This document shows, piece after piece, positions 6,999 through 32,735 of a DNA stretch of 51,348 bases. The DNA is taken from the NCBI GenBank assembly GCA_022826005.1, contig JAJDVT010000136.1:1-51348 (forward strand), read 5' to 3'. The notes beneath the pieces are model-generated. The model saw nothing but the letters and a program-made list of their open reading frames with translations. It made no database searches and was not told where the DNA came from. Numbering within the stretch: the first letter of the stretch is position 1; each line of letters starts with the position of its first letter. Origin of the DNA: Gemmatimonadota bacterium (GTDB lineage: Bacteria; Gemmatimonadota; Gemmatimonadetes; Longimicrobiales; Gaopeijiaceae). The position numbers and the translations under genes were made by a program.

Positions 6999-7029
6999 TG
7001 AGGCAGACGGGTTTGGGGAGGGCGGAAGG

Positions 7030-10152: not shown

Positions 10153-10851
10153 TTGGACGGCGTGCGACCGATAGCGGAAGGCCGCGTCGAGCAGTGGGCG
10201 GAACGGTACCGCCACGTGATGCTCCGGGTCGCCCTCGGCCTGATGGCGCGCCCGGACGATGCGGAGGACGTTGTACAGCGGGCGCTGGTGGCGGCTGTCG
10301 CCAGGGCACGCCGGAGGCCGCAAGCGGTGATGGCGGTACGACATCCCCGTGCTTGGCTTGCTGCGATCACGCGGAACGTTGCGCTCGACACCCTGCGAAA
10401 ACGGGCGCGTCGCAAGCGGATCCGGCACCGCAATGAGGCAGAGATCCGCGAGCAGCTTGTCTTGGAGCCGGACTTCGGCTGGGACGCGGATCGCCTAAGC
10501 GAGCGGGTATCCGCCGCCGCCGAACGGGTGCTGAGCGCCAAACAGCTTCGGGTCGTTCGGGGCATGCTGGAGGGCAGAACGGACGCTCAGATCTCGCGGG
10601 ACGAAGGGATGGCGAGAGGGTCCGTGCGGAGGCTGCGCAGCGAAGCGATCCGTGTGCTCCGGGGTCATTTTGCCGAGTCGGGGGGGGGGGGGGGCGGGGC
10701 GCCCCCCCCGGTGGACGCTGTGGTCCACGGGTGTGAGGAAGGCGGAAACGGAAGCGGCCGACCCGCATGTGCAGCCCGGGTCGCAACCGGCCCAAGACGC
10801 CCCTCCAGATGGCCAACCGAACGGATCGCGGGTCTCATGACGTCTATGTGA
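10153..10851 (+). CDS. ECF-like RNA polymerase sigma factor
   Basis: A 232-residue ORF from TTG 10153 (an in-frame GTG lies 9 bases on). Region 2 is clear: RYRHVMLRVALGLMARPDDAEDVVQRAL, then HPRAWLAAITRNVALDTLRKRARR. Region 4 follows: AAERVLSAKQLRVVRGMLEG, and the helix-turn-helix DAQISRDEGMARGSVRRLRSEA near residues 145-165. After about residue 175 the frame enters a 15-G run and a Pro/Gly/Arg-rich tail unlike a sigma factor, so the true end is probably near 10680 or the tract has shifted the frame. It follows the amidase by 6 bases. No anti-sigma gene is adjacent. Confidence 0.8.
   Translation: MDGVRPIAEGRVEQWAERYRHVMLRVALGLMARPDDAEDVVQRALVAAVARARRRPQAVMAVRHPRAWLAAITRNVALDTLRKRARRKRIRHRNEAEIREQLVLEPDFGWDADRLSERVSAAAERVLSAKQLRVVRGMLEGRTDAQISRDEGMARGSVRRLRSEAIRVLRGHFAESGGGGGGAPPPVDAVVHGCEEGGNGSGRPACAARVATGPRRPSRWPTERIAGLMTSM
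10680..10709. repeat. Homopolymer run G15 followed by C8
   Basis: Fifteen G at 10680-10694, then C-GGGG-C-G, then eight C at 10702-10709. The run falls just after sigma region 4. Such a tract is prone to slippage and to sequencing error, and it could act as a phase-variation site. Confidence 0.9.
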
Positions 10852-11228: not shown

Positions 11229-11714
11229 ATGACCGTCACGAAATTCTCTATTATTCTGCCGCTCTTGGGTTTGATTCACGCTGCAGTTGCTGACTTTTCG
11301 GGCCCCGACCTCAGTATTGAGTCATCCCCATCATGTGCCTCTAACTCCGTAGAATTCCGTTACAACCAGGTGCCGTTATCCGAGCAGCGCTCGACACCAT
11401 CTCAAACGCAGACCTACCAGGTGACCCTTCTGCGCAGCCCGATGCAAGTTGCTATGCATATGTTGTTGTCTCTTCAGAAACCGAGCCCGTCAATATACTT
11501 CTACGCGGTGCAGTCGTTGCTTGAGTGCCTACTTAAGCATGAGATTTGCGAACGTGTCTGCGCGCGTGCTGCGGCTGACCGAGCCGGCGTCCTCACCCCG
11601 GAACAAGTCGACAGTTATTTCTGGATCTGTGTGTCCCGGTGCCCTTCATGTGTACGGTCATCAGGCGCAGAAGAGGAAGAAGAGGAAGGCAACGGGGAGG
11701 GAAACGGCCCATGA
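11229..11714 (+). CDS. Small secreted Cys-containing protein coupled to a propeller gene
   Basis: A 161-residue protein with no recognised family. The ATG at 11229 (MTVTKFSIILPLLGLIHAAV) starts a signal peptide and has AAGGA upstream. The C-terminal third is Cys-rich: LLECLLKHEICERVCARA, then YFWICVSRCPSCV, followed by a run of Glu and Gly. Its stop overlaps the ATG of the propeller lipoprotein (ATGA). A similar C-terminal pattern (HCPTC and an acidic tail, also overlapping the propeller start) is found upstream of the paralogous propeller at 42190-43356, which argues that the pair is a real unit. Lower GC than the surroundings. Confidence 0.6.
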   Translation: MTVTKFSIILPLLGLIHAAVADFSGPDLSIESSPSCASNSVEFRYNQVPLSEQRSTPSQTQTYQVTLLRSPMQVAMHMLLSLQKPSPSIYFYAVQSLLECLLKHEICERVCARAAADRAGVLTPEQVDSYFWICVSRCPSCVRSSGAEEEEEEGNGEGNGP

Positions 11715-12868
11715 GAGGAACAACCTGCGGAGTCAAGCCCGAGGCCGTGCGGGCCATTTTCCTTTGCCTCTTGGCAGGGTGTTTCGGAGCCTTTCTGGCG
11801 AGCTGCGATTCTCCCGACGTAGAGATTGACGCGGAGACAGAGAACGACGCGGAGGTGTTGACAATTGAACCAGCATTGATTGGTTCAGCCCACGTCCCCT
11901 ACAGTATGACCACCAGTGTTGCCCTTCTTGATGAGCATACGGCCTGCACGATCGATACCTATGAGACAAAGATTGACTGCGTCACCCGGTCAGGCGCGAT
12001 CACTGGACGCTTTGGGTCAACGGGTGAAGGTCCCGGTGAGTTTGTCCGTCCGAGTCGGCTGGTGCGGGGCAGCGGAGGCACTCTTGGTGTGACCGACCCA
12101 GCACGCGGGAGGTTTTTTGCGTTCACGAGAACAGGGGAGTTGGTTGCCGAGGTTTCGTTACCTGTTCCGGCGTTCATCCCGGCGGCCGCGTTTGACACGA
12201 CAATAATCGGTTCGTACATCAGTGGCTATGGTCCGGACCCGACGGCAAGGGGTGGGATGGCGGCTGCCGAGATCCTGCTTGCTACGGGGGAGCTGGTACG
12301 AGAGTGGCGGCCGACACGCGTGCCCCAAGTCCCGGAATGTGGTATGCCGTATTTCGGCTTTCCGGCGGTTGGCGGGTTCTCTGGGGACCAAAGCTGGGTG
12401 TTTATGGCATGCAACGGCCACATTGCGTTTGTAGAGCCGGACGGGGAGACTACCGTGATAGAGGCTCCGACTTATGCTGGCGACCTTCCGGGGGAGAGGG
12501 ATTTGGAGGAGCATCGCAATGTCATTGGCGATTTTCGCCGACGGAATGGCATAACCACAGACCTTAGTGGCAGTATCAGGAGATTCGCTGAGAGGCCAAT
12601 GACATACTTCTTGGGGAGCGGCCAGGAGACGTTTGATAGCCAGGGGCGTCTGTGGATCTCGACCAGGCGGAACCGCAACGAGGCGTCATTTGTTGATATC
12701 TACGCGGGGACTGAGTATGTGGGCACGGTCAAGGTGAGGGATCGTATGATAGACTTTGATGTGTTTGAGGGTACTCTGGCCGTGTTGGTTGAACGTCAGG
12801 CAGGATCTGGTGACGCCGATGGTATCCCGGACCGTGGAATCGATTGGTATGACCTTGATGGGTTCTAG
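11711..12868 (+). CDS. 6-bladed beta-propeller lipoprotein
   Basis: A 385-residue lipoprotein. The ATG at 11711 overlaps the upstream stop. The signal peptide ends at LASC (lipobox). It is a close relative of the protein at 42190-43356 along its full length: both share VPYSxTxSVALxDxxTACTxDTYExK, a GxGPGEF loop, the segment QETxDSQGRLWIST, VRDRMIDFDV and the end IDWYDxxGF. It is probably a periplasmic or outer-membrane binding protein. The gene is markedly poorer in GC than the neighbouring operons, suggesting recent acquisition with its small partners. Confidence 0.8.
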   Translation: MRGTTCGVKPEAVRAIFLCLLAGCFGAFLASCDSPDVEIDAETENDAEVLTIEPALIGSAHVPYSMTTSVALLDEHTACTIDTYETKIDCVTRSGAITGRFGSTGEGPGEFVRPSRLVRGSGGTLGVTDPARGRFFAFTRTGELVAEVSLPVPAFIPAAAFDTTIIGSYISGYGPDPTARGGMAAAEILLATGELVREWRPTRVPQVPECGMPYFGFPAVGGFSGDQSWVFMACNGHIAFVEPDGETTVIEAPTYAGDLPGERDLEEHRNVIGDFRRRNGITTDLSGSIRRFAERPMTYFLGSGQETFDSQGRLWISTRRNRNEASFVDIYAGTEYVGTVKVRDRMIDFDVFEGTLAVLVERQAGSGDADGIPDRGIDWYDLDGF

Positions 12869-13098: not shown

Positions 13099-13119
13099 GC
13101 CGGTCACCCCGCGACCGGC
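13099..13119 (-). terminator. Hairpin overlapping the end of the PKS operon
   Basis: GCCGGTC (13099-13105) pairs with GACCGGC (13113-13119) around a 7-base loop, a perfect GC-rich 7-bp stem at the stop codon of the last operon gene. No T-run follows on the minus strand, so it may act with Rho or only stabilise the 3' end. Confidence 0.4.
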
Positions 13120-14861
13120 AGGTTGACGTTGGCCGGCACGGCCGGTGGAGCCTCCGAACTCAACGCCAGCTGGAAAGCCGCCAGACTCTCGGCGATCCCA
13201 TCTCCGGCAAAGCGGAATTCCTCGGGGATGGTTCGCTGGCGCTCCTTTGCGCGTTGAAGCGCCGCCTTTCTGAGCTCGTCCCACATTTCCGGTTCCGCAT
13301 CAGGCCCCCGCCTGGCTTCATTGAACGACGCCAACTCCGATTTCACGTATTCCTTGAAGCCGCGAATCATGGTCTGCTGACGCGTGAACTTCTCGCAGTG
13401 GTATCCCATGCCGGCCAGACGGATGGCCAGCGGCAGGAGTCGGGGGTGTTCCCTGGATACCCTGGCGATGTAGCGCGAGAACACCGGCAACTGCTCCGGG
13501 GTCAGGCGCCGCCGGATTCCCATGATGGCCGCATAGAGGATGTGCTTGCCAACGGGCTTGTACAGATGCGGTACCGGGTTGAGGTTCTGCAACAGGGTCA
13601 GACAGCGGTCGAAGTAGTTCTCCAGCGTCGAATCGTAGATGGTCCCGATGACCCGGAGGTAGCCTTCCACCAGCGTCTGGGGGTCCATTTGCGGCTTGAA
13701 GTTCAGGGCGGTGTCGTCGATCTCGACCGGTTTGTCCAGCAACCGATTCTCGCGCTCCAGCCGCGTCCACAGGTTTGTTCCCTTGAGTGCGGTCAGCAAG
13801 CCGATCAATGAGATCGGAATCCCGGCCTCCTGGATGAAGTCGATCTGGGCATCGAACGCGTTGTCATCGTCGTCGTCGAGGCCGAGGATGAAGCCGCCCA
13901 GAACCATCATTCCCTTCTGCTGAATCTTGCGCACGGATGTGAACAGGTAGTTGTCGTCGCGCATGTCGAGATTCTGAGGCTTCTTCATCTTCTTGAGAGC
14001 CTTCGGGTTGGGCGTCTCGATGCCCAGGAAGACGGCGTCGAAGCCGGCCTCGATCATGACATCCATCAGGTCGTTCATCCGAACGATATTGACGCTTGCT
14101 TCGGTGAACAGCGAATAGGGATGGCCACGCTCCTTCTGCCATTCCGCAATCACGGGGAGAAGCCTTGAGACTTCGCGCTTGTTGCCGATGAAGTTGTCAT
14201 CGACCAGGAAGAGCGGACCGCGCCAGCCCAGCTCGTACAGGCGATCGAACTCGGCCACCATCTGCTGCGGCGATTTCGTTCTCGACACCCGGCCGTACAG
14301 CTTCGTGATGTCGCAGAACTCGCAGTCGAAGGGACATCCCCGCGAGAACTGCAGACACATCGAGTGATACTCGCTCATGTCGATGAGGTCGAAGCGGGGA
14401 ATCGGAGCCAGGGTCATGTCCGGCTTTCTCGGGGCGCGATAGATGGGTTTGGCCGTGCCGCTTTCCAGGTCGCTCAGGAAGGTCGCGAAGGTCTCCTCGA
14501 CCTCATCGAGGACGAAGTGATCGATCCCCTCGATCTCTTCGTGAAAGGTGGTGGGATGCGGCCCGCCGGCGATGACCGGAACACGCGCGCGGTTGCAGCG
14601 CTCAACGACCTGCTCGAGCGATGGGCGCTGCGGAATCATGGTCGACGTGAAGGCCAGGTCCGCCCACTCCAGGTCGTCGTCCTCGAGCGGGGTCACGTTG
14701 AGGTCGACCACGCGCAGGTTGTACCGGGACGGAAACATCGCGGCGACGGTGAGCAGGCCGAGAGGAGGGAACACCGCCTTGATGCCCTGGAGGTCCAGGG
14801 CGTAGTTGTTGCCCCAGTAGGTGGGAGGCTGCTTCGGGTAGACGAGTAGGGCGTTCGACAT
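13104..14861 (-). CDS. B12-binding-type radical SAM protein (DUF4070-like), last gene of the PKS operon
   Basis: A 585-residue protein (an ATG 12 bases further upstream would add MEQH; the chosen start has GGAG 8 bases before it). The N-terminal cobalamin-type domain is seen in AFPPLGLLTVAAMFP-like spacing (here VFPPLGLLTVAAM) and VPVIAGGPHPT. The radical SAM cluster CPFDCEFCD has its CxxxCxxC cysteines at about residues 176, 180 and 183. FLGIETPNPKALKKM and VLGGFILGLDDDDD are further family segments, and the C-terminal third is DUF4070-like. Related enzymes, including hopanoid methylases, methylate unactivated carbons. It begins just after the reductase/sulfotransferase stop, so it likely modifies the polyketide. 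The substrate is inferred from context only. Confidence 0.85.
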   Translation of the reverse strand: MSNALLVYPKQPPTYWGNNYALDLQGIKAVFPPLGLLTVAAMFPSRYNLRVVDLNVTPLEDDDLEWADLAFTSTMIPQRPSLEQVVERCNRARVPVIAGGPHPTTFHEEIEGIDHFVLDEVEETFATFLSDLESGTAKPIYRAPRKPDMTLAPIPRFDLIDMSEYHSMCLQFSRGCPFDCEFCDITKLYGRVSRTKSPQQMVAEFDRLYELGWRGPLFLVDDNFIGNKREVSRLLPVIAEWQKERGHPYSLFTEASVNIVRMNDLMDVMIEAGFDAVFLGIETPNPKALKKMKKPQNLDMRDDNYLFTSVRKIQQKGMMVLGGFILGLDDDDDNAFDAQIDFIQEAGIPISLIGLLTALKGTNLWTRLERENRLLDKPVEIDDTALNFKPQMDPQTLVEGYLRVIGTIYDSTLENYFDRCLTLLQNLNPVPHLYKPVGKHILYAAIMGIRRRLTPEQLPVFSRYIARVSREHPRLLPLAIRLAGMGYHCEKFTRQQTMIRGFKEYVKSELASFNEARRGPDAEPEMWDELRKAALQRAKERQRTIPEEFRFAGDGIAESLAAFQLALSSEAPPAVPANVNLPVAG

Positions 14862-14876
14862 GTGTTGCTCCATAGG

Positions 14877-17396
14877 TCACAACAGCGACGCTCTGCGGTC
14901 ACTTCCCGACAGGAATTCGCGATACCGCGCGAACGCGGTGTCGATCATTTCGCGTGTCAGCCCGTAGTCCGCAATATCGTACTTGTGCCGCTTCTCGGTG
15001 CGGCGCCGCTCACGCTGTTCATCCAGCCACATCTCCATGGCTTCCACCGCGTCGGGCCGCAGCTCCCACCCACGGCGTTCGTAGATTCGAGCCACCACCG
15101 ACATCGGATCCTGCACCAGGTCGTAGTAGCTGACATCGATCCAGCGGGCCTCAAGTTCGGGGTGCGACTCGCGGAAGTCCACCGCCCGATCGAGCAGACC
15201 GCTCATCGCCCGCAGCTGCTCGGCACCCAGCACATCCGGCGGGCGGGGCTCGCCGACGTCCGCGCGAATCCGTTCCACCAGACTGCACCAGGATCCCATG
15301 AATTGGACCGGTACCCGGTGTGTCTGGATGAACAGGGCATCCGGGTACGCGTCGATCAGCGCCTCGAGCTCCATGAGGTGCGTCGGCATCTTGAACAGCC
15401 ACTGGCCTTCGGCGCCGGAATGGCTCTGCATGCGCTGGTAGGTGTAGTGCTGCATGACCCGGCGGTGGTGGTGGTAGGCCTCGCGAGATCCGCTCGCTTC
15501 GAGCCAGCGTTCGTACTCGGGAACGTAGTAACGGGTGGCGAACATCCAGGCCTTGAACGAAAGGCGGAGGATCGGCATGTCCTCTTCCGGCCCGTCGACG
15601 TCTATGTGGTGGATCCCGGCAAAGGAGTCGATGATGCCCGAGGCTTCGAACACGTCTGCTGCCAACGCACGGCGGGGGTCGTCAGGGGTGCAGGCGAGGC
15701 CCGCATAGTCGCCGTCGGGCAGCACGGGCTCGACATACTCGTACGCCCGAAGCGCCCAGAAGCGGTCGTCCCGGGCCATGAGCCGGTGAAGGTACGTTGT
15801 GCCGGTGCGATTGATGCCCACGATGAAGACCGGCCGGGTGACCTTCAGTCTGTCGATTTCCGAAAACCGCAGCCGCTCGGCGACCAGTTCCGCATTGTTG
15901 CGGAGCATCCGGCACATGTCGAACGCCACATGACCGACCCGGGTGTCCAACAGGCCGGCTTCCGGCGAATTGAGCGCTCTTACAAGCTGCTTCATTGCAT
16001 CGAGCATCCACTCCGGGTAGGTGGCATCGAAGGCCAGACCGCGGTCGTCCGCGTAGCGGCGCGCCTGCCGGAGCAGGTGATCGAGCTTCAGGCGGCGGCG
16101 GGGCTCCGGGTGTGGCCATTCGTCCCGATGTTCCCTGATCCATCGGTTGTAGCGAACGTACCGCGTGAGGGGGCCGGGCCACTCGATCGTGCCCGGAAAG
16201 TCCTCGCGAATCGCGCGGTCACTGATCGGAAGCGACGTCGCCGAGTGGCGGCCCCGCAGCCAATACCGGGCGAAGTGATCGACCAGGGCCCAGTACCCGG
16301 CGAGCGGTGAAGCGTCGCCGCGGGCCTGGCATGCGCTCCTGAAGGCCTTGTAGGACACCTCCGGGTAGTCCAGGCCGAGTTCTTCAATTCGAATGGTACG
16401 ATATGACGGCGTTGGGTTGCAGCAGTTGTAGACCGTGAACCGACGTCTCGGATTCAACGAAATCCCGGTGCAGATGTTGCTCAGCGTGTCGACCGGATCG
16501 TTGTTGGATTGCAGGGTGAAACCGCGGGGAATCATCCCGGCGTCGACCACCGCCGAGAAAAGGCGCTGGGTGATGTTGCTCGGCTGCGTGTACCCGGTCG
16601 ACGCCAGACTGGTCTGCGCCAGGCGGAAGATCGCCACGGGCAGACCGACGGCATTCGCAAAGAGAATCGCCTGTTCGGCCACGAGCTTGCTCCACGGATA
16701 CCCGAGGAGTCCAAGTGGGAACATCCGCTTCATGCCGGCCAGGTCCGGCTGCATCTGATCGTCGATGTGGCTGTTCTCGTACTCGAGCGCAAAAGCGCAG
16801 AAATACTCGGGGAAAATCCCCATCGTCGAAGCGTAGAAGAGGTGCTTGAAGCGGGTGTGCAGGCACAGCTCGAGAACGTTGCGGGTGCTGAAGGAGTTGA
16901 CCCGGCGAATGCCAAGGTAGGAGGCGGAAAGACTCAGAGTGGCTGCGAGGTGATAAACGGCGTCGATTTCTTCGCAAAGAGAACGAAAGCGCGAGTCGGA
17001 CAAACCGAAGCGCGGTTCCGCGATGTCCCCGGCGTGCACTTCGATCCGGGACGCGAAGTCGTCGTCCCAGGTCTCCGCGTGTTGCATGTTCGCCCGCACG
17101 CGCTCGAAGCCCTGCTCCGGTGTGTCGCCCCGCACGATGCAGTGCACAGTCAGGCGAGGGTCGCGTGTGAGGAGGTCGCGCAACAGGAAACGGCCGAGGA
17201 AGCCGGTCGCGCCGGTGACGAGAACGTGGCGGAAGTCGACTGGTGAGACGGCGTCGCCGGGGGTCGCGCGCGTGACTGCGTCGCGCACGAAGCCGCGAAG
17301 TGTGGTGAGATCGCGCTGGCAGTGGGGGGGCAGAGGGCCGGTCAGCGGCGGGACTCGCCCACCGGTGGGGGATTGCAGGGTGGTGACGGAGTTCAA
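14877..17396 (-). CDS. Thioester reductase-sulfotransferase fusion
   Basis: An 839-residue two-domain protein. The TTG start overlaps the PKS stop (TTGA). Residues about 55-330 are a Lys2/NRPS-type thioester reductase (NAD_binding_4): nucleotide loop TGATGFLGRF at 61-70, substrate-side YASTMGIF near 188, catalytic YPWSK at 233-237. Such domains release carrier-bound chains as aldehydes or alcohols using NADPH. Residues about 515-830 are a sulfotransferase: PAPS 5'-phosphosulfate loop INRTGTTYLHRLM at 528-540, and FKMPTHLMELEALIDAYPD followed by FIQTHR near 690, typical of bacterial Sulfotransfer_3 proteins. About 180 residues link the two. The fusion implies reductive release followed by O-sulfation. 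Sulfation of a beta-hydroxyl before elimination, as in alkene-forming synthases, is the main alternative. Confidence 0.85.
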   Translation of the reverse strand: MNSVTTLQSPTGGRVPPLTGPLPPHCQRDLTTLRGFVRDAVTRATPGDAVSPVDFRHVLVTGATGFLGRFLLRDLLTRDPRLTVHCIVRGDTPEQGFERVRANMQHAETWDDDFASRIEVHAGDIAEPRFGLSDSRFRSLCEEIDAVYHLAATLSLSASYLGIRRVNSFSTRNVLELCLHTRFKHLFYASTMGIFPEYFCAFALEYENSHIDDQMQPDLAGMKRMFPLGLLGYPWSKLVAEQAILFANAVGLPVAIFRLAQTSLASTGYTQPSNITQRLFSAVVDAGMIPRGFTLQSNNDPVDTLSNICTGISLNPRRRFTVYNCCNPTPSYRTIRIEELGLDYPEVSYKAFRSACQARGDASPLAGYWALVDHFARYWLRGRHSATSLPISDRAIREDFPGTIEWPGPLTRYVRYNRWIREHRDEWPHPEPRRRLKLDHLLRQARRYADDRGLAFDATYPEWMLDAMKQLVRALNSPEAGLLDTRVGHVAFDMCRMLRNNAELVAERLRFSEIDRLKVTRPVFIVGINRTGTTYLHRLMARDDRFWALRAYEYVEPVLPDGDYAGLACTPDDPRRALAADVFEASGIIDSFAGIHHIDVDGPEEDMPILRLSFKAWMFATRYYVPEYERWLEASGSREAYHHHRRVMQHYTYQRMQSHSGAEGQWLFKMPTHLMELEALIDAYPDALFIQTHRVPVQFMGSWCSLVERIRADVGEPRPPDVLGAEQLRAMSGLLDRAVDFRESHPELEARWIDVSYYDLVQDPMSVVARIYERRGWELRPDAVEAMEMWLDEQRERRRTEKRHKYDIADYGLTREMIDTAFARYREFLSGSDRRASLL

Positions 17397-20300
17397 TGGC
17401 TTGCCGCGGCAGTGGGCCTGGCCCCGTCGGCCGGCGTGTTGCCTCTCTTGCGTTCGCCATAGGCGGCGCGCCCACCATTCGGAAAGTGATCCTCCGGCGC
17501 GTGCGCGAAGGGTGAACGGCGTCTGCGCATGCGCGGACGGATCTCTTCTTCAACCCGCGCGGCTGTATCTGCCCCGCCTGCGGCCTCCTCCTCGGCATAG
17601 CCGTCGGCCCCGTGCACGATTGCCTGCGCCAGGGAGAGCGCCGAAGCGGTAGTCATCAGCTCGAGCGCGCTGACCTGGTGGTTGAACTGCGTCTGAACGA
17701 AGGCTCCGAGCTCGGCAACCGATATCGAGGTGAGTCCGAAGCTGGACAGCGGCTCGGCCACGTCGCCCTCTTCGTGGCCGCACAGCTCGGCGACCTTGGC
17801 CGAGATCTGGGCCACGACACCATCAAGCGTCAGTTCGCCGCCCGCGTCCACCTCGAACGCGGCCTGATTGTTCACCAGCCGGCCGTTGCGCATGTAGTCG
17901 GGCGAATCGACGGTCCAGGGCGGCGTCGCAAACAGCGCAGTGACGAGGTGGTCGTGATCCGCCATGGTGCGCATGGCGAAGTCGAGGTTGGCGATCGCGA
18001 AGTTGGCGCTGACGGTCGTCATTCCGGCGGCCCTCATCATGCGCATGACGTGCAGGCTGCGGGCCGCCATCCCGACCTCGGTCACGGGGCCCAGGTTGTA
18101 CGCGAAACCCGGGAGCCCTCGCTGGCGCCGATACGCGGCCAATCCGTCAAGGAAGGCGCTGGCGCCGCTGTAGTTGATTTGTCCCAGGTTGCCAAACGTC
18201 GACGCGATCGACGAGAACAGCACGAAATAGTCGAGATCGTGCCCGGCGGTGGCGTGATGCAGGTTGAGCGCGCCCTGAGCCTTCGGCGCGAACACGCGCG
18301 CCAGCGAATCGGGCGAGGTTTCGAGGAAGGAGCGGTCCTCCAGCGTGCCGGCGAGGTGAAACACGCCCTTCAGGGGCCTTGTCAGCGCCCCGATGCAGCG
18401 TTGCACGTCCGCCTCGTCGCGCACGTCCCCCGGCACGATGTCGATCTCGTATTCCTGCGTCATCTTGGAGAGCGTGGTGATCTGGCGGATCCATTCGACA
18501 TCACGGCTCCGTTTGGGATCGCGGTCCATTAGAGTCAAGTGCCGCGCCCCGGCAGCGATCAGGTAGGGCACGAAGCGAAGGCCGAATCCTCCCAGGCCGC
18601 CGGTGACCAGGTACGTTGCGCCGGGATCCAGGAAGGGTCGCGTGTCCGCGATGCCGAATCCCCGATCCATGGCGTCCTCCGGCGCCTGCAGGACCAGCTT
18701 GCCCTGGTGCTGGCCCGTGGTCATCAGGCGGAGTGCCCGGGCGTAGTCGCGGTACGGGAAGACCGTCAGCGGCGGCGGCGCGACCGCCTCCTCATCCATC
18801 AGGTCCATGCAGGCCTGGGAGAGCATGTGCGACAGCACCGGGTCGTCGAGCATCAGCCGGTCCACATCGATCGCGGCGAAGCGGAGATTCTTGCGGAAGA
18901 CCCGCATGCTCAGCGAGTTGTCGGTGTAGATATCGACCTTGCCGATTTCGCAGTGCCAGCCGGAGGGGCGCAGCGCCTTCAGGCAGAGCGCGATGTGGTG
19001 GCCGGCGAGCGAGTTCAGAACCACGTCGACGCCTTCGCCGTCCGTGGCCTCCATCAAGTCGTCGTACCAGCTGTGGCTGTGCGAATCGAAGGCCCCCCGC
19101 ACGCCCATCGCCCGCAACTGCTCGCGCTTGCTGTCGTTGCCCGCGGTCGCGTAGATCTCCGCTCCGACGTGCCGGGCCAGCGCGATCGCGGCCTGCCCGA
19201 CACCGCCCATCGCGGAATGGATCAGAACCCGCTGGCCCTCCCGCAGGCGGGCGAGGTGGATCAGCGAGTAGTAGGCGGTTACGCAGACGGACAACGCGGA
19301 TGCGGCCTCTTCCATGCTCACCCGGGACGGTTTGAGGAAGGCCAGGTGCTCGTTCACCACCACCCGGTTGGCGATGCAGCCGCCCACCGTGAGTGCCACC
19401 TCGTCCCCGACCTTCAGGCGCTTCACGTCGGATCCGGCACGCCGCACCACCCCGCTGGCCTCGATGCCGACTTCGCGACCGAGCGCCGAACGCTCATAGG
19501 CCATGGCGGGCAGGAGTCCCAGCGTGACCATGACGTCGCGGAAGTTGAGGGCGGCCGCCGCGACTTCGACCTCCACATCGGACGGGCCCAGAGCGGGCGG
19601 TTCGCAGGTCGTCATCTGGAGACCGCTGACCTGCCCGGGGTTGTCCGGGCGAAGGCGGTACGGGGGATCGGCCCCGTCCGGGACGAGCGGCGCGCGTTGC
19701 CGCACGCTTACGATTCGCGGCACCCAGAGGCGCCGCTCCCTGATCGCCAGTTCGCGCTCCCGCAGGTCGCACCGGGTGATGCCGGCCAGAGTCTCCAGAT
19801 CTTCGTCCGCACCGATGTCCACGAGGTGGAAGTCGATGCGGGTATCTTCGGCGAGGAGTTCCAGGGCAATACTGCGCACCGCCCCCCAGAGCGCGCTGCC
19901 ACGCGGATCGTCAACGCCGCACACCGAGCCGCTTGTGATCACTGTCAAACGGCACTCACCAGTCGCGCTCTCAAGCCGGAACGGGGCCAGGGCCTGCAGA
20001 AAGGCTACAAACCGCCAGACCATCCGCTCGCCGGTGGGATCCTCCGGGTCGGTGCCGACAAAGAGGTCGATCGCCTCGAGTTCGGCGGCGCCCGGCCACT
20101 CCTCCAACCGGGCAAAGTCGCCTGCCTCGAAGGCTGTCCAGGGGACGTGATGTACCATGGACGAATCGAGGTGTTCAATCCAGGCCTCAGCCGGGGTGCC
20201 CGGTTCCCCGACCACCCAGCGTGGGCCCGAAGTCGCGGTTTTTCGCGCGGGCTCGGTCCCGGCCACGGCTTTCCCAGGGTCTAAGGCTTCCCCAACCCCC

Positions 20301-23300
20301 ACGGCTTCCCCAGCGCCCGCGGCTTCAGTCGCATCCCGCAACTCGGCGAGGGTGTCCGGAGCCTGCAGCGTCGTCGTGCGGGAACCTGCATGCAACGTCG
20401 TCCAGCCGCGGGCGGGCTCGATCACATCCCCTTCCTCGTGGCACACAAGAACAAGACCGCCGGCGACCAGGAGGCGATGGACGAGTTTCCACTGCTCGGG
20501 CCCGAAACCGGCGGCTTCCCGATGAAGTAGCAGAAGCTCGGCCGCCGCCGGCCGCAACAGCCCGGAAGCCATGGAAGGCTCGGAGTCCCCGGCGGCCATC
20601 GGATCGAGCGAATCGAATCGAATCGAAGCGTCGTGATGGTTGAAAGCGTCGTAGAGTGCGCGCGTGCACTCTTCATCTTCGCCGAGGAGCCAGTATTCGG
20701 TCTGTGCGTCCGGGCTCGACAGGCGCTCCAGGCACTGGTTCAGGATGGCCTGGCCGGGCTCACGCCGACCCGCGATCTCGACCACGCGGCACGCGTACCG
20801 ATGGCCCAGGGCGCCCTCCTCGAGCGCCGCAATCAGCGCGGCGGGATCGACTTCGCCATCCCGGACCGCGTCCCCGACCGGAGGAGCCGACACCACGAAC
20901 TTGGGCTGCCAGCGGATGAGGTGTTTGCTGTCCGGCACATCGCTCCAGCGGGGATTGCTGTTGAAGGAGTGATACTCACCGATGTGTGCGATCAGGTGTC
21001 CCGTCGCGCGATCGTAGAAGCTGAGGCGGCCGATATAGAGTTCGCCGAGAGGCTTGTTGTACTGCCCCCGTTCATCCACGTCGAACCAGTCACCGGTGTC
21101 GACCAGGAAGCAGCTGATGCGCGGCCCCGTCGGCGGGCGCAGGAAGGTGATGTCGCACGCCCGCTGCGGCATGGAGAAGAAATCCGGCAGGCGCATCAGG
21201 TAGCGCAGGAAGATCTGGAGTCCCCCATCGGTCAACGGGGGGTACAGTAGATAGCCTTCCTCCCGGCCGGAGGCCCACAACTCGTTGTCCACCTCGATAT
21301 CCAGGAGGAGGTCCGTCGAACCGGAATCCATCTCGATCTGCCGGACGCTGCGGAACTCGGGCCCGAACTCGAAGGCATCCCCCACGACCGCTTCGATGTG
21401 GTCGTAGAACTCCTCTCCCGTTGCGAGGGGTTGGGGATCGAAGTCGGAAGCCAGGACGTCGTCGAGCGTCGGGAGGGTGTCGATGGCGTGGTCTTCGTCC
21501 ACCCGGCGGACGCGGCCGCGGCAGTGCAAGGTGCCCTGGTCGTCGTCTTCGAATGAACGGGTGGAGATGGTGAAGGTGAACTGATCGGGAGCATTCGGAA
21601 CCGGAAAGAGGGCCGTTTGCAACCGCACGGGGGTCTTGCCAACGGGTGTATGCTGCAGGAATTCGATCTCGTCGATGTGCACGGGATCGCCGGCGAACGC
21701 CTGCAGGAGCAACTCGATGTACCCGGCAGCCGGAATGATGGGCGCCCGGTGAACCCGATGGTCCGTGAGCCAGGGGAAGTCCCGCTCGGAAAGCCGCGAC
21801 TCGAAGAGAATGTGGTCGCAGGCGACCCTGTGGCCGACCAGCGGCCCGTGCGAGTACTCGCCGCGCTGGACGAACATCTCGTCGTCGACCAGGTCGTCGT
21901 GGGTGGTCGCCCGTTCCTGCGGATGGCCGGGGAGCAGGTGGGCGACGGGTTCCGGGCGCGGGTACTGGGACGCGAAATCAAGCCGGAAGCCAGCGCGGTA
22001 CAGTGCTCCCAGCGCCTCCTGGAAGCCGAGGCACACATCCTCATCCTTCATGAGCGTCGGGATGCAGGCCGGGTTCGAAGCGCCGCCTTCCAGGCATTGC
22101 CGGATGAGCGGTTGCAGGGCACCGTGCGGGGCGATTTCCAGGACGACATCGGGTCGATAATCCTGCTTCACCGTCTCCATCGCGGCTGCGAAGCGAACCC
22201 GCTCCCGGATGTTGGACCACCAGTATGCGGCATCCAGGCGCTGCGTGGCGTTGCCGGTTACCGAGGACACCATGGGGACATCGGCTTCGAAGGCGCTCTC
22301 ATTCAGGAAGGACAGCGAAGCCATGACATCGTCGTGCAGCGGATCCATCGCCGTGGAGTGGAACGCGATGTTCCCGGGGATCAGGCGATTCTGCAGGTCG
22401 CGGCGATCCAGCTCCGCCACGACCGGCCTCAGCGCGGATTCCTTGCCGCAGATCACGGTATTGGCGGGCGAGTTCTCGCAGGCGATTTCAACCTGGGCGG
22501 GCCGGTGGTTTCCGGACTGGCGTGAAACGCCGAGTTCGTCCAGCAAGTCCTCGACGCCCAGGCGGTCGAGGCCGATCGCCAGCATGCGTCCCGAGCCGGC
22601 CACCCGTTGCTGCAGAGTCGCGCGGTGGTAGACGAGATGCGTAGCCTCGGCAAGCGAAAGCGCACCGCACGCGTAGGCGGCCGCCACCTCGCCGGAGCTG
22701 TGTCCGACGACGCAGTCCGGCTGAACGCCCCAGGTCGACAGCAGTTCCACCAGGGCACACTGAATCATGAAGATCGCGGGCTGCGCGAGCCGGACTTCGT
22801 TCAATTCCTCCTGGCTCGCCTTGAAACAGGCGTCGCGCAGGGATACCTCGGAGTGTTTCCGCCACTCCACCTCAACGGCGTCGATCACGCGGCGGAAGAC
22901 GGGATCGGCGTCGTAGAGCGCGCGCCCGCACCCCTCCCACTGCGTTCCCTGCCCCGAGAACACCATGGCCACGCGGCGCTCACCCTCCTCGACGGTGGAC
23001 ACGGGAGACGGGTCCTCAACGAACGCGTCCAGCACCTCGGCGAGCTGGGCGCGGTCTCGCACGGCGAAGGCCGCACGCGCCGCAAACTGGCTGCGGCGCC
23101 GGCCGAGGTTACCCGCCAGCGTGTAGAGGTCGACATCCCGCTCGTCGAGAACCGCCCGCAAGCTCTCCGCGCTCTCTGCAAGCGCGTTCGGGGTCCGCGC
23201 GGACAAGGGGACCATGTATCCGGCGTCCGGGGCCAGCGGCACGGACCACATCCCTGGTTGCTCGGGCCGGTATTCCCTCACCACGCAGTGCCCGTTGGCA

Positions 23301-24577
23301 CCGCCGAACCCGAAGGAATTGATGCCGATCACGACCGGGCGGTCCGGGAAGGGCTCGCAGTCGGTCTGCACCCGCATCGGGCAGCTGTCGAAATCGATCT
23401 CCAGATTCGGTGCCAGGAAATTCCTGGAAATCGGTGCGAAGGTTCGTCGCCGCATCATGATGACGACCTTCAGCAGAGCCGCGCTGAACGCCGCCGCTTC
23501 CAGGTGCCCCACATTGCTCTTCACGCTTGCGACGCGCAGCGGAACATCACGCTCTACGCCCCCGAACGCCTCGGCGATCGCATTCCCCTCGATACGGTCG
23601 CCCACGACGGTGCCGGTCGCGTGCGCTTCGATATAGTCGAAGTCCTCCGGACCCACTCCCGCGCGCTCACACGCCGTGCGCATCAGGTCGACCTGCGAGT
23701 GCCGGGTCGGCGCGGTGATATAGCGCCCCTGCGCCATTCCCGCGGCGTCGTCGGCGGTCCCGGCCGTGTTGACCGCGGTGGCCTCGATCACCGCGAAGAC
23801 GTGGTCGCCGTCCCGCTCGGCCGCCTCCAACGGCTTGATCGCGAAGACGAACGACCCTTCGGCGCGCATGTACCCGTTTGCGTCGGCGTCGAAGGAATGA
23901 CACCTCCCGTCCGGACTGATCACGCCGAGAGCGTTGAACGAGGCGCTGCAGCGGGCCGACCCCAGATAGGTTGCGGCCCCCACCAGGGCCCGGTCACAGT
24001 CGCCCTGCCGCAGCGAGTTGATGGCCGTGTGGAGGGCGGTCAGGGACGCGGAGCAAGCCGTGGAGCACGCGATCGACGGTCCCATGAGGTTGAGATGGTA
24101 GGAGATGCGGTTCGCCAGCATCGAGGCGTCGATGCTCAGTATCGAGAACTCGTTGGTGCCGAACAGCGCCCGCCAGTTGGCCGTCGACGCCACCTGCGCC
24201 CCGATGAAGACTCCCGTGGGACTGTTGCGCAGCGCGTTCAGATCCCACCCGGCGTGCTCGCAGCTCTCCCAGGAGCAGCCGAGAAGCATCCGGATCTGCG
24301 GATCCATGTAGGCCATCTCGTTGCGCGAGACCCCGAAGAGGCTGGGGTCCATCCGCTGCTCTCCCTGGTCGCGTATCAGCCCTTCGTACGCGCTGCCGAA
24401 TCGCCCCGGGCCGGAGAATTCGCCGATCGGCTGGTAACCGCGGCCGTACCGGTCGGTTACCGGTTCCCGGACGATCTCGCGTTCGCTGAGGAGGCGCCAG
24501 AAGTCATCGTCCGTGCGGATTTCCCCAGGCATACGGTAGGCATACCCGACAATGGCGACCGGACCAGGGTGGCTCAT
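17393..24577 (-). CDS. Monomodular highly reducing type I polyketide synthase
   Basis: A 2394-residue synthase; AAGGA precedes the ATG. Domains in order: KS (5-435; TACSAS with Cys-175, EAHATGT His-319, KSNVGH His-358), AT (535-840; GHSSGE Ser-627, IAFH at 737-740, which suggests malonyl-CoA), DH (about 905-1205; His-940, and DGGLQ with Asp-1117), a degenerate methyltransferase-like region (about 1260-1385; VVEIAG without the glycine-rich SAM loop, then GGLVLVCHEE), the KR structural half (1515-1625), ER (1638-1965; SAMGGVGQAA), KR (1985-2165; TGGLGGFG, Ser-2123, Tyr-2136) and ACP (2250-2325; GLTSIS with Ser-2284). A basic 65-residue tail ends it. No thioesterase is present; release is presumably by the reductase encoded next. 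One module with every reducing domain suggests iterative synthesis of a saturated chain. Confidence 0.93.
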   Translation of the reverse strand: MSHPGPVAIVGYAYRMPGEIRTDDDFWRLLSEREIVREPVTDRYGRGYQPIGEFSGPGRFGSAYEGLIRDQGEQRMDPSLFGVSRNEMAYMDPQIRMLLGCSWESCEHAGWDLNALRNSPTGVFIGAQVASTANWRALFGTNEFSILSIDASMLANRISYHLNLMGPSIACSTACSASLTALHTAINSLRQGDCDRALVGAATYLGSARCSASFNALGVISPDGRCHSFDADANGYMRAEGSFVFAIKPLEAAERDGDHVFAVIEATAVNTAGTADDAAGMAQGRYITAPTRHSQVDLMRTACERAGVGPEDFDYIEAHATGTVVGDRIEGNAIAEAFGGVERDVPLRVASVKSNVGHLEAAAFSAALLKVVIMMRRRTFAPISRNFLAPNLEIDFDSCPMRVQTDCEPFPDRPVVIGINSFGFGGANGHCVVREYRPEQPGMWSVPLAPDAGYMVPLSARTPNALAESAESLRAVLDERDVDLYTLAGNLGRRRSQFAARAAFAVRDRAQLAEVLDAFVEDPSPVSTVEEGERRVAMVFSGQGTQWEGCGRALYDADPVFRRVIDAVEVEWRKHSEVSLRDACFKASQEELNEVRLAQPAIFMIQCALVELLSTWGVQPDCVVGHSSGEVAAAYACGALSLAEATHLVYHRATLQQRVAGSGRMLAIGLDRLGVEDLLDELGVSRQSGNHRPAQVEIACENSPANTVICGKESALRPVVAELDRRDLQNRLIPGNIAFHSTAMDPLHDDVMASLSFLNESAFEADVPMVSSVTGNATQRLDAAYWWSNIRERVRFAAAMETVKQDYRPDVVLEIAPHGALQPLIRQCLEGGASNPACIPTLMKDEDVCLGFQEALGALYRAGFRLDFASQYPRPEPVAHLLPGHPQERATTHDDLVDDEMFVQRGEYSHGPLVGHRVACDHILFESRLSERDFPWLTDHRVHRAPIIPAAGYIELLLQAFAGDPVHIDEIEFLQHTPVGKTPVRLQTALFPVPNAPDQFTFTISTRSFEDDDQGTLHCRGRVRRVDEDHAIDTLPTLDDVLASDFDPQPLATGEEFYDHIEAVVGDAFEFGPEFRSVRQIEMDSGSTDLLLDIEVDNELWASGREEGYLLYPPLTDGGLQIFLRYLMRLPDFFSMPQRACDITFLRPPTGPRISCFLVDTGDWFDVDERGQYNKPLGELYIGRLSFYDRATGHLIAHIGEYHSFNSNPRWSDVPDSKHLIRWQPKFVVSAPPVGDAVRDGEVDPAALIAALEEGALGHRYACRVVEIAGRREPGQAILNQCLERLSSPDAQTEYWLLGEDEECTRALYDAFNHHDASIRFDSLDPMAAGDSEPSMASGLLRPAAAELLLLHREAAGFGPEQWKLVHRLLVAGGLVLVCHEEGDVIEPARGWTTLHAGSRTTTLQAPDTLAELRDATEAAGAGEAVGVGEALDPGKAVAGTEPARKTATSGPRWVVGEPGTPAEAWIEHLDSSMVHHVPWTAFEAGDFARLEEWPGAAELEAIDLFVGTDPEDPTGERMVWRFVAFLQALAPFRLESATGECRLTVITSGSVCGVDDPRGSALWGAVRSIALELLAEDTRIDFHLVDIGADEDLETLAGITRCDLRERELAIRERRLWVPRIVSVRQRAPLVPDGADPPYRLRPDNPGQVSGLQMTTCEPPALGPSDVEVEVAAAALNFRDVMVTLGLLPAMAYERSALGREVGIEASGVVRRAGSDVKRLKVGDEVALTVGGCIANRVVVNEHLAFLKPSRVSMEEAASALSVCVTAYYSLIHLARLREGQRVLIHSAMGGVGQAAIALARHVGAEIYATAGNDSKREQLRAMGVRGAFDSHSHSWYDDLMEATDGEGVDVVLNSLAGHHIALCLKALRPSGWHCEIGKVDIYTDNSLSMRVFRKNLRFAAIDVDRLMLDDPVLSHMLSQACMDLMDEEAVAPPPLTVFPYRDYARALRLMTTGQHQGKLVLQAPEDAMDRGFGIADTRPFLDPGATYLVTGGLGGFGLRFVPYLIAAGARHLTLMDRDPKRSRDVEWIRQITTLSKMTQEYEIDIVPGDVRDEADVQRCIGALTRPLKGVFHLAGTLEDRSFLETSPDSLARVFAPKAQGALNLHHATAGHDLDYFVLFSSIASTFGNLGQINYSGASAFLDGLAAYRRQRGLPGFAYNLGPVTEVGMAARSLHVMRMMRAAGMTTVSANFAIANLDFAMRTMADHDHLVTALFATPPWTVDSPDYMRNGRLVNNQAAFEVDAGGELTLDGVVAQISAKVAELCGHEEGDVAEPLSSFGLTSISVAELGAFVQTQFNHQVSALELMTTASALSLAQAIVHGADGYAEEEAAGGADTAARVEEEIRPRMRRRRSPFAHAPEDHFPNGGRAAYGERKRGNTPADGARPTAAASH

Positions 24578-24629
24578 GAGGCGGTTCCTTGCCTCCTCGC
24601 CGCCAGGAGCGGCGATGCTGGCAGGCCTG

Positions 24630-24911
24630 CTAGGAGGCGTCGACTACTCCATGCACAGCCTTGTCGGCGGTGTCGAACATCATCTGGAGCCACTTCTTCC
24701 GCCGCGCCCGGAAATCCTTGACCAGGTCCCACAGATCGTCCCGGATCTGCTCGATCGCCGCTTCGCGGACTTCTTCGGACAGTGTGGTGTCGTTCTCGAA
24801 CTCGTACTTTTCGATCGCGAAGTCGGCGACGTCGAGGATGTTCTCGCCGACGACCTGTAGATCGACGGCTTTCTTCAGGGTGATTGATCTGTCGTAGTTG
24901 CGGTCGGCCAT
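24630..24911 (-). CDS. Small helical acidic protein, first gene of the PKS operon
   Basis: A 93-residue protein starting MADRNYDRSITLKKAV at 24911; the longer upstream reading frame has no ribosome binding site and crosses the promoter region. It is predicted almost wholly alpha-helical, rich in Glu, Asp, Lys and Arg, with segments SEEVREAAIEQIRDDLWDLV and RRKKWLQMMFDTADKAVHG. There is no signal peptide, no cysteine and no phosphopantetheine Ser motif, so it is not a carrier protein. I do not recognise the family. Its place 52 bases ahead of the synthase suggests an accessory, docking or scaffold role. Confidence 0.75.
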   Translation of the reverse strand: MADRNYDRSITLKKAVDLQVVGENILDVADFAIEKYEFENDTTLSEEVREAAIEQIRDDLWDLVKDFRARRKKWLQMMFDTADKAVHGVVDAS

Positions 24912-25048: not shown

Positions 25049-26122
25049 ATGACCACACCCCACCCTCGAGGCCCCGTTCTCGTCACGGGCGGCAACGGAT
25101 ACGTCGCGTCCTGGCTGGTCAAGCGGCTCCTGGAACGCGGTTTCCACGTCCACGCGACTGTCCGCGACCCGCAAGACCCCCGCAAGACCGACCACCTGGA
25201 CGCGATCGCGCAGGATTGCCCCGGCAGGCTGACCTTCTTCCGGGCGAACCTCCTCCATCCCGGCGCGTTCGACTCCGCCGTGGCGGGCTGCCGCCTCGTC
25301 TTCCACACCGCCTCCCCCCTTATCGTGCGCGGCGTCGAAGACCCGGTGCGCGATCTCCTCGAGCCGGCCACCGCCGGCACCCGCCACGTCCTGGAAGCGG
25401 CCAACCGGACGGCCTCCGTTCGGCGCGTCGTGCTAACGTCGAGCATCACGGCCATCTACGGGGACGCCGCCGACCTGGAGGAGATCCCCGCCGGCTGTTT
25501 CGACGAGAGCCACTGGAACGAAACGAGCGACGCACGCCACCAGCCGTACTCCTATTCCAAGACGCTGTCGGAGCGACTCGCCTGGGAGATCGCCGGGAAG
25601 CAATCCCGCTGGGATCTCGTCGTGGTCAACCCCGGGCTCGTCCTGGGGCCGGGCCTGAGCCCCCACACCAGGGCGGAGGGGGTGCTCGTCATGCGGGACT
25701 TCGGCAACGGCTACTACCGGTTCGGCGCGCCGGAACTGGAGTTCGCGGTCGTGGATGTACGGGACGTGGCCGAGGCTCACCTGCGTGCGGGCATGAAACC
25801 GGAAGCGGCAGGGCGTCACGTTCTGGTCGGCGAGTCGCTGAGCGTGATGGAGATCGCCGAGATTCTGCGAGGCCGTTTTGGCGACGGCTTCCCGTTTCCC
25901 CGCCACACCGTATCCAATACGGCGGCCCTCATGCTCGCTCCCCGGAGGGGCATTCCGCAGGCAGTGGCCAGGCGCAACCTCGGATACCCGCTGAGGTTCG
26001 ACAACCAGCGCTCCCGATTCGCCCTGGGCATGACCTACAGGCCTGCCGCGGAGTCGATCGTCGAACACTTTCAGCAACTGCTGCACGACGGACTGGTCAA
26101 GCCCCGTCATCCGGTTTCTTGA
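25049..26122 (+). CDS. Extended SDR, dihydroflavonol-4-reductase-like
   Basis: A 357-residue NAD(P)-dependent oxidoreductase. The Rossmann motif VLVTGGNGYVASWLVKRLL lies at about residues 10-28, followed by the basic NADPH-favouring ATVRDP. The catalytic YxxxK is in QPYSYSKTLSERLAWE near residue 170, with VLTSSITAIYG before it. Family features include FHTASP and VVNPGLVLGPGL. Such enzymes reduce ketones or aldehydes of small lipophilic or polyketide-like molecules. It is divergent from the PKS operon across a shared promoter region, so it may belong to the same pathway, for example by acting on a released carbonyl, but that is inference. Confidence 0.87.
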   Translation: MTTPHPRGPVLVTGGNGYVASWLVKRLLERGFHVHATVRDPQDPRKTDHLDAIAQDCPGRLTFFRANLLHPGAFDSAVAGCRLVFHTASPLIVRGVEDPVRDLLEPATAGTRHVLEAANRTASVRRVVLTSSITAIYGDAADLEEIPAGCFDESHWNETSDARHQPYSYSKTLSERLAWEIAGKQSRWDLVVVNPGLVLGPGLSPHTRAEGVLVMRDFGNGYYRFGAPELEFAVVDVRDVAEAHLRAGMKPEAAGRHVLVGESLSVMEIAEILRGRFGDGFPFPRHTVSNTAALMLAPRRGIPQAVARRNLGYPLRFDNQRSRFALGMTYRPAAESIVEHFQQLLHDGLVKPRHPVS

Positions 26123-31003: not shown

Positions 31004-31220
31004 CTTGGCGGCGTTGACGGAGTCCTCGGGTCCGGAGGCCCAGCTCGGGTAACGGGGGCGTTGTCGGCTGCGCCCGACAGTCCTTTTGTCCGATACTGAC
31101 TACGAACCGTATTCCAACCGTATTCCAACACTTGCGCACCGGAGCGGGAGACCATACGCATTGCGAATTGGAGGGGACTTGTATGGTAGTGGAATGCTCC
31201 GATTTCGTGGGGAGTAGACA
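31003..31220 (+). promoter_or_regulatory. Gap with tandem ACCGTATTCCA repeat and promoter-like boxes
   Basis: The unit ACCGTATTCCA occurs twice in tandem near 31106-31128. Further down, TTGCGA and TATGGT appear 15 bp apart near 31164-31190, the same hexamer pair as at 5350-5378 but with shorter spacing. GGGGAG seven bases before 31221 is the ribosome binding site of the sigma gene. Confidence 0.3.
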
Positions 31221-32338: not shown

Positions 32339-32369
32339 CGCGACTCGCCGCGATGCCGCTGCCGGGCGA

Positions 32370-32735
32370 CTACTGCGCCCGCTTCCTCCAGTACCTGGCC
32401 AGCCCCCACCACGAATCCCTGAAACCGGACGCCGTCTCGTAGAGGCGGACATGATCTCCGGGGACGCGGTGCCTCAGCTCGGCAAAGTGCGCGGCCACGT
32501 CCCCAAACGCCCCGACGTGCGTCGCCACGATCCGCACGGGACCCCACGCCATCACCCTCTCGATGCTGGACTTCCACCCCTCCACATCGATATCCGGCGG
32601 CGGCGTAACCGGCAGCGCGGGTCCGCCCTCGATGCGGATCCCGCCCACGTCGCCCACCCACGCGGTCCCCGTCGCGGCCTCGTAATACGCCACGTGGTGC
32701 CTGGCGTGCCCGTCCCGGCTGCCGGGGGAGTATCC
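32370..32735 (-). pseudogene. Deleted duplicate of the MBL-fold hydrolase 3' end
   Basis: Nearly identical to the C-terminal part of the MBL gene at 34288-35208: shared GTAWVGDVGGIR, GGPALPVTPPPDIDV, ERVMAWGP, HVRLYETASGFRDSWWGLAR and the end YWRKRAQ. Between AHFAELR and HRVPGDHV about 40 residues present in the intact gene are missing; the deletion joins two LR-coding sites. The N-terminal half with the zinc motif is absent. It sits after a propeller gene, exactly as the intact copy does. Confidence 0.8.

Follow-up and report, generated by a model that had tools for sequence, protein, structure and literature searches.

We describe a biosynthetic gene cluster on a 51,348-nucleotide stretch of DNA from a Gemmatimonadota bacterium (contig JAJDVT010000136.1 of assembly GCA_022826005.1), called the window here at its full length. 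Four minus-strand genes lie end to end at positions 13104-24911 by the open reading frame (ORF) calls, a feature confirmed as far beyond chance. Judged by motifs, gene order and protein sizes, which stand in for deposited sequences in this comparison, the locus is the swf cluster and not a new architecture. The genes swfA, swfB and swfC, with the domains found here, were described from sponge symbionts in 2013 by della Sala et al. (PMC3908369). In the sponge-associated Gemmatimonadota clade where it sits here, the cluster probably directs a pathway in which the chain of an iterative polyketide synthase (PKS) is released reductively and sulfated, with optional C-methylation, a reading that we hold with fair but by no means high confidence.

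The swf locus and its four proteins

The genes of the locus and the domains of their products, with lengths in amino acids (aa), are:

24630-24911, minus strand: small protein of 93 aa, of the ORF19/POR_0546 type judging by its position and size, modelled as a two-helix hairpin
17393-24577, minus strand: swfA, 2394 aa, one-module reducing type I PKS with ketosynthase (KS), acyltransferase (AT), dehydratase (DH), enoylreductase (ER), ketoreductase (KR) and acyl carrier protein (ACP) domains, in that order
23429-24562, minus strand: SwfA KS, residues 6-383, with the Swf signatures DPQIR and HATGT
21998-22963, minus strand: SwfA AT, residues 539-860, with GHSSGE, QCALVEL and IAFH
21557-21844, minus strand: SwfA DH, N-terminal half, residues 912-1007, His kept
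18689-19588, minus strand: SwfA ER, residues 1664-1963
18080-18619, minus strand: SwfA KR, residues 1987-2166
17618-17809, minus strand: SwfA ACP, residues 2257-2320, one PP-binding domain
14877-17396, minus strand: swfB, 839 aa, thioester reductase-sulfotransferase fusion, whose TTG start overlaps the swfA stop
16476-17219, minus strand: SwfB thioester reductase NAD-binding domain, residues 60-307
15060-15833, minus strand: SwfB sulfotransferase domain, residues 522-779, with GINRTGTT and THRxP motifs
13104-14861, minus strand: swfC, 585 aa, B12-binding, radical S-adenosylmethionine (SAM; CPFDCEFC) and DUF4070 domains, the HpnP-like domain set

The small gene and swfA are 52 bases apart, swfA and swfB share a TTGA overlap, and 15 bases separate swfB from swfC; an alternative in-frame ATG at 14873 would give a SwfC of 589 aa and a 3-base gap to swfB. 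An earlier note on this DNA, made from the letters alone, had reported these four near-contiguous genes with the same junctions, and had read in them a reducing PKS module with one ACP, a reductase-sulfotransferase and a B12-type radical SAM protein. The ORF coordinates and the domain scan agree with it on both counts. It had left open whether the genes belong to the Sup or Swf groups or form a new architecture, and every signature tested, in the domains, the KS and AT motifs, SwfB and SwfC, is that of Swf. With respect to Sup, the motifs peculiar to Swf speak for Swf.

In SwfA, for which motifs were counted over the 27 of 32 rows longer than 2200 aa, the KS carries DPQIR at residue 92 (DPQ[IV]R in 26/27 rows, DPQQR in 0/27) and, at residue 319, HATGT in place of HGTGT (27/27). 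The AT motifs GHSSGE (residue 625) and IAFH (residue 737) are present in all 27 rows, and QCALVEL (residue 606) is found in 22 when variation at its ends is allowed. IAFH in SwfA points to malonyl units; it was taken as malonyl-type in the 2013 report too, which yet judged GHSSGE unusual for such units (PMC3908369). The best solved relative of SwfA is mycocerosic acid synthase (8.7e-219), and SwfA is therefore likely to be an iterative reducing chain builder. Its best NCBIfam match is Pks2, at 874 bits against a cut-off of 2400.

Both halves of SwfB score above the Pfam cut-offs (NAD_binding_4, 1.8e-48; Sulfotransfer_3, 1.4e-33), and they are fused in all 29 SwfB rows of at least 700 aa, rows picked by length. 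Motif counts over 29 rows gave GxTGFxGR in 29, GxNRTGTT in 28, THRxP in 29 and a YxxSK-type motif in 24.

SwfC combines B12-binding, Radical_SAM and DUF4070 (8.8e-21) domains, and its CX3CX2C cluster motif is present in 28 of 28 rows. The joint occurrence of these three domains, which defines HpnP-like proteins (PMC10697835), is thus seen in SwfC. Judging by its domains, C-methylation is the most likely reaction. The gene was not found beside swfB in loci L154 and L025 and is shortened to 139 aa in locus L034 (genome G009); because it is absent beside swfB or cut in these loci and in the published PSA11D7, we regard SwfC as a tailoring enzyme rather than part of the core.

The 93-aa leading protein, which the earlier note could not place, indeed has no Pfam or NCBIfam match (scanned as a longer reading of 142 aa), but it is in effect no newcomer, as its position and size fit ORF19 of the 2013 table, a homologue of POR_0546. 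Its ORF behaves as coding, since differences from five relatives fall at third codon positions in 10/12, 20/24, 15/26, 22/34 and 29/47 cases and the same protein adjoins swf in many genomes. The structure model is a two-helix hairpin (pLDDT 82.6); it matched none of the solved folds at E <= 0.001, so no function is assigned.

A predicted route to a sulfated lipid

SwfA would work iteratively on its single ACP, joining malonyl units into an acyl chain that is mostly saturated. A reductase is present and no thioesterase family is among the domain matches of the four swf proteins, which implies release as aldehyde or alcohol: the reductase half of SwfB would free the chain as an aldehyde and then reduce it to a primary alcohol. 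Because the sulfotransferase is fused to the reductase, sulfation of the released end is the most direct next step, and this half would transfer sulfate from 3'-phosphoadenosine-5'-phosphosulfate (PAPS) onto the new hydroxyl to give an alkyl sulfate. SwfC would add an optional C-methyl branch. PAPS would come from CysD-CysNC (ATP sulfurylase/APS kinase), encoded near swf in part of the genus. Regulation of the pathway in response to some signal would probably fall to a permease, a STAS protein and the small helical protein. Reductive release followed by sulfation, the chemistry offered in the earlier note, agrees with the proposal of the 2013 authors; the sulfated lipid itself is what we infer.

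Within the window's genus, 20 members carry swf marks, 18 of them with SwfB and the other two being G005 and G019. CysD occurs in 19 of these 20 (in G019 as a fragment) and in none of the three members without such marks (G001, G017, G021; p 0.0023 if the genomes were independent). In seven genomes it shares a contig with swf (G002, G006, G010, G011, G013, G016, G022); cysD-cysNC adjoin the small gene and swfC in G011 (locus L035), and cysNC adjoins the permease in G111 (locus L146). A search confined to PF03460, the sulfite/nitrite reductase domain, gave matches in 0/23 genus members, compared with 6/59 relatives and 11/14 control genomes. As CysD tracks swf while PF03460 is absent from the genus, the simplest reading is that PAPS serves sulfate transfer rather than cysteine.

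Three further genes of the window have counterparts near swf in relatives or in the sponge fosmid PS11G3:

25049-26122, plus strand: short-chain dehydrogenase/reductase (SDR), 357 aa, transcribed divergently from the small gene, recurring beside swf in relatives, with size and strand fitting PS11G3 ORF16
43651-45504, minus strand: Xan_ur_permease-family protein, 617 aa, whose C-terminal part weakly resembles HATPase_c_2
45446-46684, minus strand: GcvT-like aminomethyltransferase, adjoining the permease

Two surveys of 395 Gemmatimonadota each, in which the same genomes recur and which we treat as one draw, found the small protein in 41/395 genomes and SwfB (at least 53% identity, some as fragments only) in 38/395; three of 41 SwfB matches, in G005, G287 and G317, cover a single domain at 31-34% identity and were taken as paralogues and not counted. 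The small protein is present in 38/38 genomes with SwfB and in 3 of the other 357, counts that are not independent, as few genera are involved. Among the three, G019 has a SwfB fragment and G301 swfA pieces, and in G005 neither SwfA nor SwfB adjoins the small gene. In G013, G002, G015 and G009 of the genus, the order is permease, STAS, small gene, swfA, swfB and then swfC, as in ORF17-19 and onwards of the sponge fosmid PS11G3, except that G002 has its permease in two pieces, the contig of G015 stops within swfB and swfC of G009 is cut. In another family of the class (f7), of whose 11 SwfB genomes nine were used for gene order (G191 and G203 left out), the permease adjoins the small gene in 9/9 loci with no STAS match between them, and the swf genes run swfC-swfA-swfB in five loci and swfA-swfC-swfB in four. 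The closest permease class (62-100% identity) occurs in 20/20 genus members with swf marks, the G002 copy being in two pieces and the best G003 piece incomplete, whereas the best match in the three members without swf marks is a paralogue of 43-45%. The SDR likewise recurs next to swf in related genomes.

STAS domains (PF01740) of the relatives carry an SSAGL motif; in partner-switching regulation, an RsbW kinase with a HATPase_c_2 domain works with a STAS antagonist that has a phosphorylatable Ser. In loci L051-L054 the small domain is fused in frame behind a STAS domain; the fusion genes adjoin cysD and cysNC in L051 and L052, and in L053 and L054 they lie no more than ~6 kb away from these genes. 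Locus L051 holds two such fusions, at 4828-5484 and 14403-15065, and in the one that was scanned Pfam matched the STAS part alone; genes for GcvT, an FAD oxidoreductase and a permease also lie near the fusions in L051 and L052.

Several observations weigh against the proposed pathway and its control. Expressed as a whole in E. coli, the swf cluster yielded no new compound, ACP activation alone being shown (PMC3908369). The dehydratase stretch of SwfA reads HRVHRAPIIP, with Arg at the site of the usual Gly, and full reduction is thus not certain. CysD was not found in G009, which has swf, and is on another contig than swf in G000, the genome of the window. Outside the genus, and leaving G033 aside, 17/35 relatives have CysD without swf; CysD is therefore not swf-specific, and the link is a feature of the window's genus. 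Other sulfotransferases also occur in these genomes, and the confinement of the reductase search to PF03460 limits the argument from its absence. As to control, ~19 kb separate the small gene from the permease, which adjoins the GcvT-like gene, and the window has no STAS match. The sole Pfam match of three permease C-termini, HATPase_c_2, falls below the cut-off (E 0.077, 0.0094 and 0.021); a structure model of the tail failed (pLDDT 37.6) and was set aside, and a profile search against PDB sequences returned one chance-level match (E 0.7).

Four other explanations bear on single steps. Sulfate could act as a leaving group, as in curacin A and Ols-type biosynthesis, with a β-hydroxyl sulfated and sulfate and CO2 lost to leave a terminal alkene. 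The sulfotransferase domain of SwfB fits this, and curacin was named as a precedent in 2013 (PMC3908369); that route, however, needs a thioesterase after the sulfotransferase, and no such family is listed in the four swf proteins. The sulfotransferase is moreover fused to a reductase, and a β-hydroxyl in the final cycle would require a skipped step, given the DH, ER and KR of SwfA, so that we consider an alkene very improbable. Sulfation of an in-chain hydroxyl, a head group or an aldehyde-derived amine (giving a sulfamate), instead of a primary alcohol, has more to recommend it: iterative PKSs are able to skip reductive steps, the SDR recurring beside swf could act on another carbon, ORF1 of PS11G3, ~25 kb from swfA, encodes an aminotransferase (PMC3908369), and a review groups marine alkyl sulfates with related sulfamates (PMC6780655). 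The fusion of the two halves in the 29 long SwfB rows favours the new end group, and we think sulfation elsewhere distinctly unlikely.

For SwfC, the weak matches to ApyD, BchE and the ladderane-type family TIGR04072, of which no listed equivalog cut-off is reached, would suit a non-methylating radical enzyme that forms a ring or a cross-link or rearranges the chain; set beside the HpnP-like domain set, this seems unlikely to us, with a real chance of being right. The STAS, permease and small genes could also be a separate, common sensor set that happens to lie near swf and plays no role in it. Each genome of the genus has 5-12 permease matches, in G000 a different PKS has a permease paralogue as its neighbour, and STAS proteins are widespread in general. 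Yet the closest permease class is confined to the swf-marked members of the genus (20/20 against 0/3), the permease adjoins the small gene in 9/9 f7 loci and is near it in several loci of the genus, and the small protein tracks SwfB (38/38). An unconnected sensor set is thus somewhat unlikely, and the alkyl sulfate pathway with its own control remains the reading that we prefer.

Host clade, probable gene transfer and flanking genes

A contig of the window's genus (G022:C23) is identical over 18,998 bases to JAJDXM010000032.1, a jk18x isolate, and the jk18x prefix marks metagenome-assembled genomes (MAGs) of Caribbean Ircinia sponges (PMC9531527). Clusters resembling swf have been reported in Nitrospirota, Latescibacterota and Acidobacteriota (PMC9426513) and in 'Thalassonella' of the Tectomicrobia (PMC10227082); the original assignment to Poribacteria was withdrawn in a 2014 follow-up, which called the source organism unresolved (PMC4245539). 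The openly accessible literature searched showed no link between swf and Gemmatimonadota, and the accessible part of a paper on the Gemmatimonadota order Palauibacterales reports type I PKSs as common, with no mention of 'swf'.

Three of eight swf loci (L028, L029, L031) are in records titled Gammaproteobacteria, the other five being titled Gemmatimonadetes or Gemmatimonadota. The rpoB genes of these three genomes are 98.7-100% identical to that of G033, a member of the window's family, and ~71.5-71.8% to that of the window genome; over 18,968 bases, L031 shares 99.6% identity with L039 of G033. Among solved chains, RpoB of the L031 genome scores 1347 bits with 9n9p and 1254 with E. coli, and RpoB of the window genome behaves likewise. 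We take the titles to be likely mislabels of public MAG records, and make no claim of transfer across phyla.

Within the phylum, trees of the swf genes were set against rpoB. The trees are quick ones under LG+G4, with a long-branch warning for G111; left out were G003 from swfA (largest piece <1500 aa), G009 from swfC, G007, G015, G401, G133, G018 and G014 from swfB (short pieces), and from rpoB G009, G013 and G236 (no match) and G191, G244 and G305 (fragmented). RpoB keeps each genus together as a single clade, with 21, 8 and 7 rows and a support of 100. In the SwfB tree, where these groups have 14, 9 and 5 rows, they require 5, 3 and 2 changes, every one forced by starred branches; the approximately unbiased test on SwfB rejects each group as a single clade (p < 1e-31). 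For SwfA, the window's genus requires 6 changes, of which at least 4 are forced, and f7 requires 4, while another genus, g12, stays together; the SwfC tree requires 2, 2 and 1 for the same groups. The window SwfA is 84.5-86.7% identical to those of seven g12 genomes, with which RpoB is only 71.4-71.9% identical. The conflict of the swfA and swfB trees with rpoB argues for transfer. The genome nearest by RpoB (G008, 92%) has a SwfA of 91% but a SwfB of only 64% identity, so that swfB can be swapped by itself. No SwfB relatives were found in 72,556 plasmid records, and none of SwfA was confirmed among viral contigs.

Traces of decay are also present. The one-contig genome G001 has only a short SwfB-like stretch (L047:9642-9899), which looks like a relic of loss, and degraded swf remains lie at L034:6082-6501, where swfC of G009 is cut to 139 aa.

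These results suggest to us, tentatively and with the balance of probability still against it, a mobile sulfated-lipid island of sponge symbionts, consisting of the swf core, its own CysD-CysNC and a dedicated sensor set (a permease whose tail resembles a degenerate kinase, a STAS protein and the two-helix family, which is also found in STAS fusions), with single genes passing between symbiont families and no sulfite reductase detected in the PF03460 search. The swf cluster itself was already known and named in 2013; new, as far as searched, are the host clade, the close link of swf to the small helical protein and to the permease and STAS genes, the argument from PAPS and the evidence of transfer among symbiont families. 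The swf genes have been known for more than ten years as widespread in sponge microbiomes. A well-sampled Gemmatimonadota clade that includes three swf-less members of the genus offers a natural comparison, and the PAPS result and the conserved neighbours narrow 'some alkyl sulfate' to named genes. If the reading is true, a sulfated lipid would be common to unrelated symbionts and likely important for life inside the sponge. We know of no link between swf and the aliphatic sulfates of sponges. Such sulfates do occur there (PMC6780655).

The flanks of the cluster hold further genes:

38913-42110, plus strand: TonB-type receptor, 1065 aa, in the flank 34288-42110
37270-38823, minus strand: amidohydrolase, 517 aa, in the same flank
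35205-37460, minus strand: S9 peptidase, 751 aa, in the same flank
34288-35193, minus strand: metallo-beta-lactamase-fold protein, 301 aa, in the same flank

A serine beta-lactamase-type protein of 407 aa is also encoded in the window flank. A phage-type integrase (48070-49443, minus strand) and a MobA/VirD2-type relaxase (50025-51080, plus strand) stand at the window end; the pair (48070-51080) is perhaps part of an integrative or mobilisable element, ~23 kb from swf. Many ORFs of 370-440 aa, at 5826-8256, 11639-12868, 29855-34244, 42190-43356 and 46751-48073, resemble diverged beta-propeller lipoproteins; among the four that were scanned, one matched DUF5128 (6-bladed propeller) just below cut-off, one a weak unrelated family and two nothing. 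A sigma factor-like ORF (Sigma70_r2, 10153-10851) lies ~2 kb beyond swfC on the opposite strand. Elsewhere, G000 has a second, larger type I PKS (L060, G000:C51:10000-29000; open frame of 3471 aa, two KS-like matches), and it is this PKS that a paralogue of the swf permease directly adjoins.

Comparison with known systems

The closest published counterpart is PS11G3, a fosmid from Plakortis simplex (PMC3908369). It shares with the window the order small gene-swfA-swfB-swfC, the SwfA domains, a SwfB of 839 aa, a SwfC of 585 aa and an upstream ORF of nearly equal size (ORF19, 92 aa; 93 aa in the window), and positions in its Table 1 give the same 4-base swfA/swfB overlap and 15-base swfB-swfC gap. 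It differs in a SwfA of 2349 aa, against 2394, in a spacing of 156 bases between the small gene and swfA, against 52, and in the window's distant permease (~19 kb upstream), lack of a STAS match and Gemmatimonadota host. The earlier note had suggested a search for the four-gene order elsewhere, and it is seen both in PS11G3 and in Gemmatimonadota relatives. A characterised cluster with the same genes and product was to have refuted the note; a cluster of the same genes does exist, but its product was never identified.

The resemblance extends beyond swf. By annotation, the receptor, amidohydrolase, peptidase and beta-lactamase-fold genes of the window keep the order and orientation of PS11G3 ORF2, 4, 5 and 6 (1025, 500, 711 and 295 aa, against 1065, 517, 751 and 301 aa), ORF6 being named a beta-lactamase there and its metallo fold being a guess. 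The PS11G3 alcohol dehydrogenase (358 aa) has the same relative strand as the window SDR (357 aa), and ORF8 (403 aa) is close in size to the serine beta-lactamase-type protein (407 aa). The GcvT and permease genes resemble ORF11/14 and ORF17, the aminomethyltransferases of PS11G3 lying upstream of swf. ORF3, in contrast, has no counterpart between receptor and amidohydrolase in the window, where the permease lies beyond the receptor. By names and sizes, the fosmid may come from the window's clade.

POR_0546-0550 and PSA11D7 (PMC3908369) encode the same enzyme set as the window, PSA11D7 without swfC; the POR genes have the order A-C-B, as do G004 and four f7 genomes (L147-L150). Among better-known systems, mycocerosic acid synthase and Pks2 resemble SwfA as single reducing modules of similar domains that build lipid chains. 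SwfA is unlike mycobacterial Pks2 in its malonyl-type IAFH motif, its downstream reductase-sulfotransferase and its score far below the Pks2 cut-off. Ols and curacin likewise place a sulfotransferase on a PKS chain, whereas swf has a reductase partner where no thioesterase is matched. The hopanoid C-2 methylase HpnP has the same domain trio as SwfC, which is encoded in a PKS operon.

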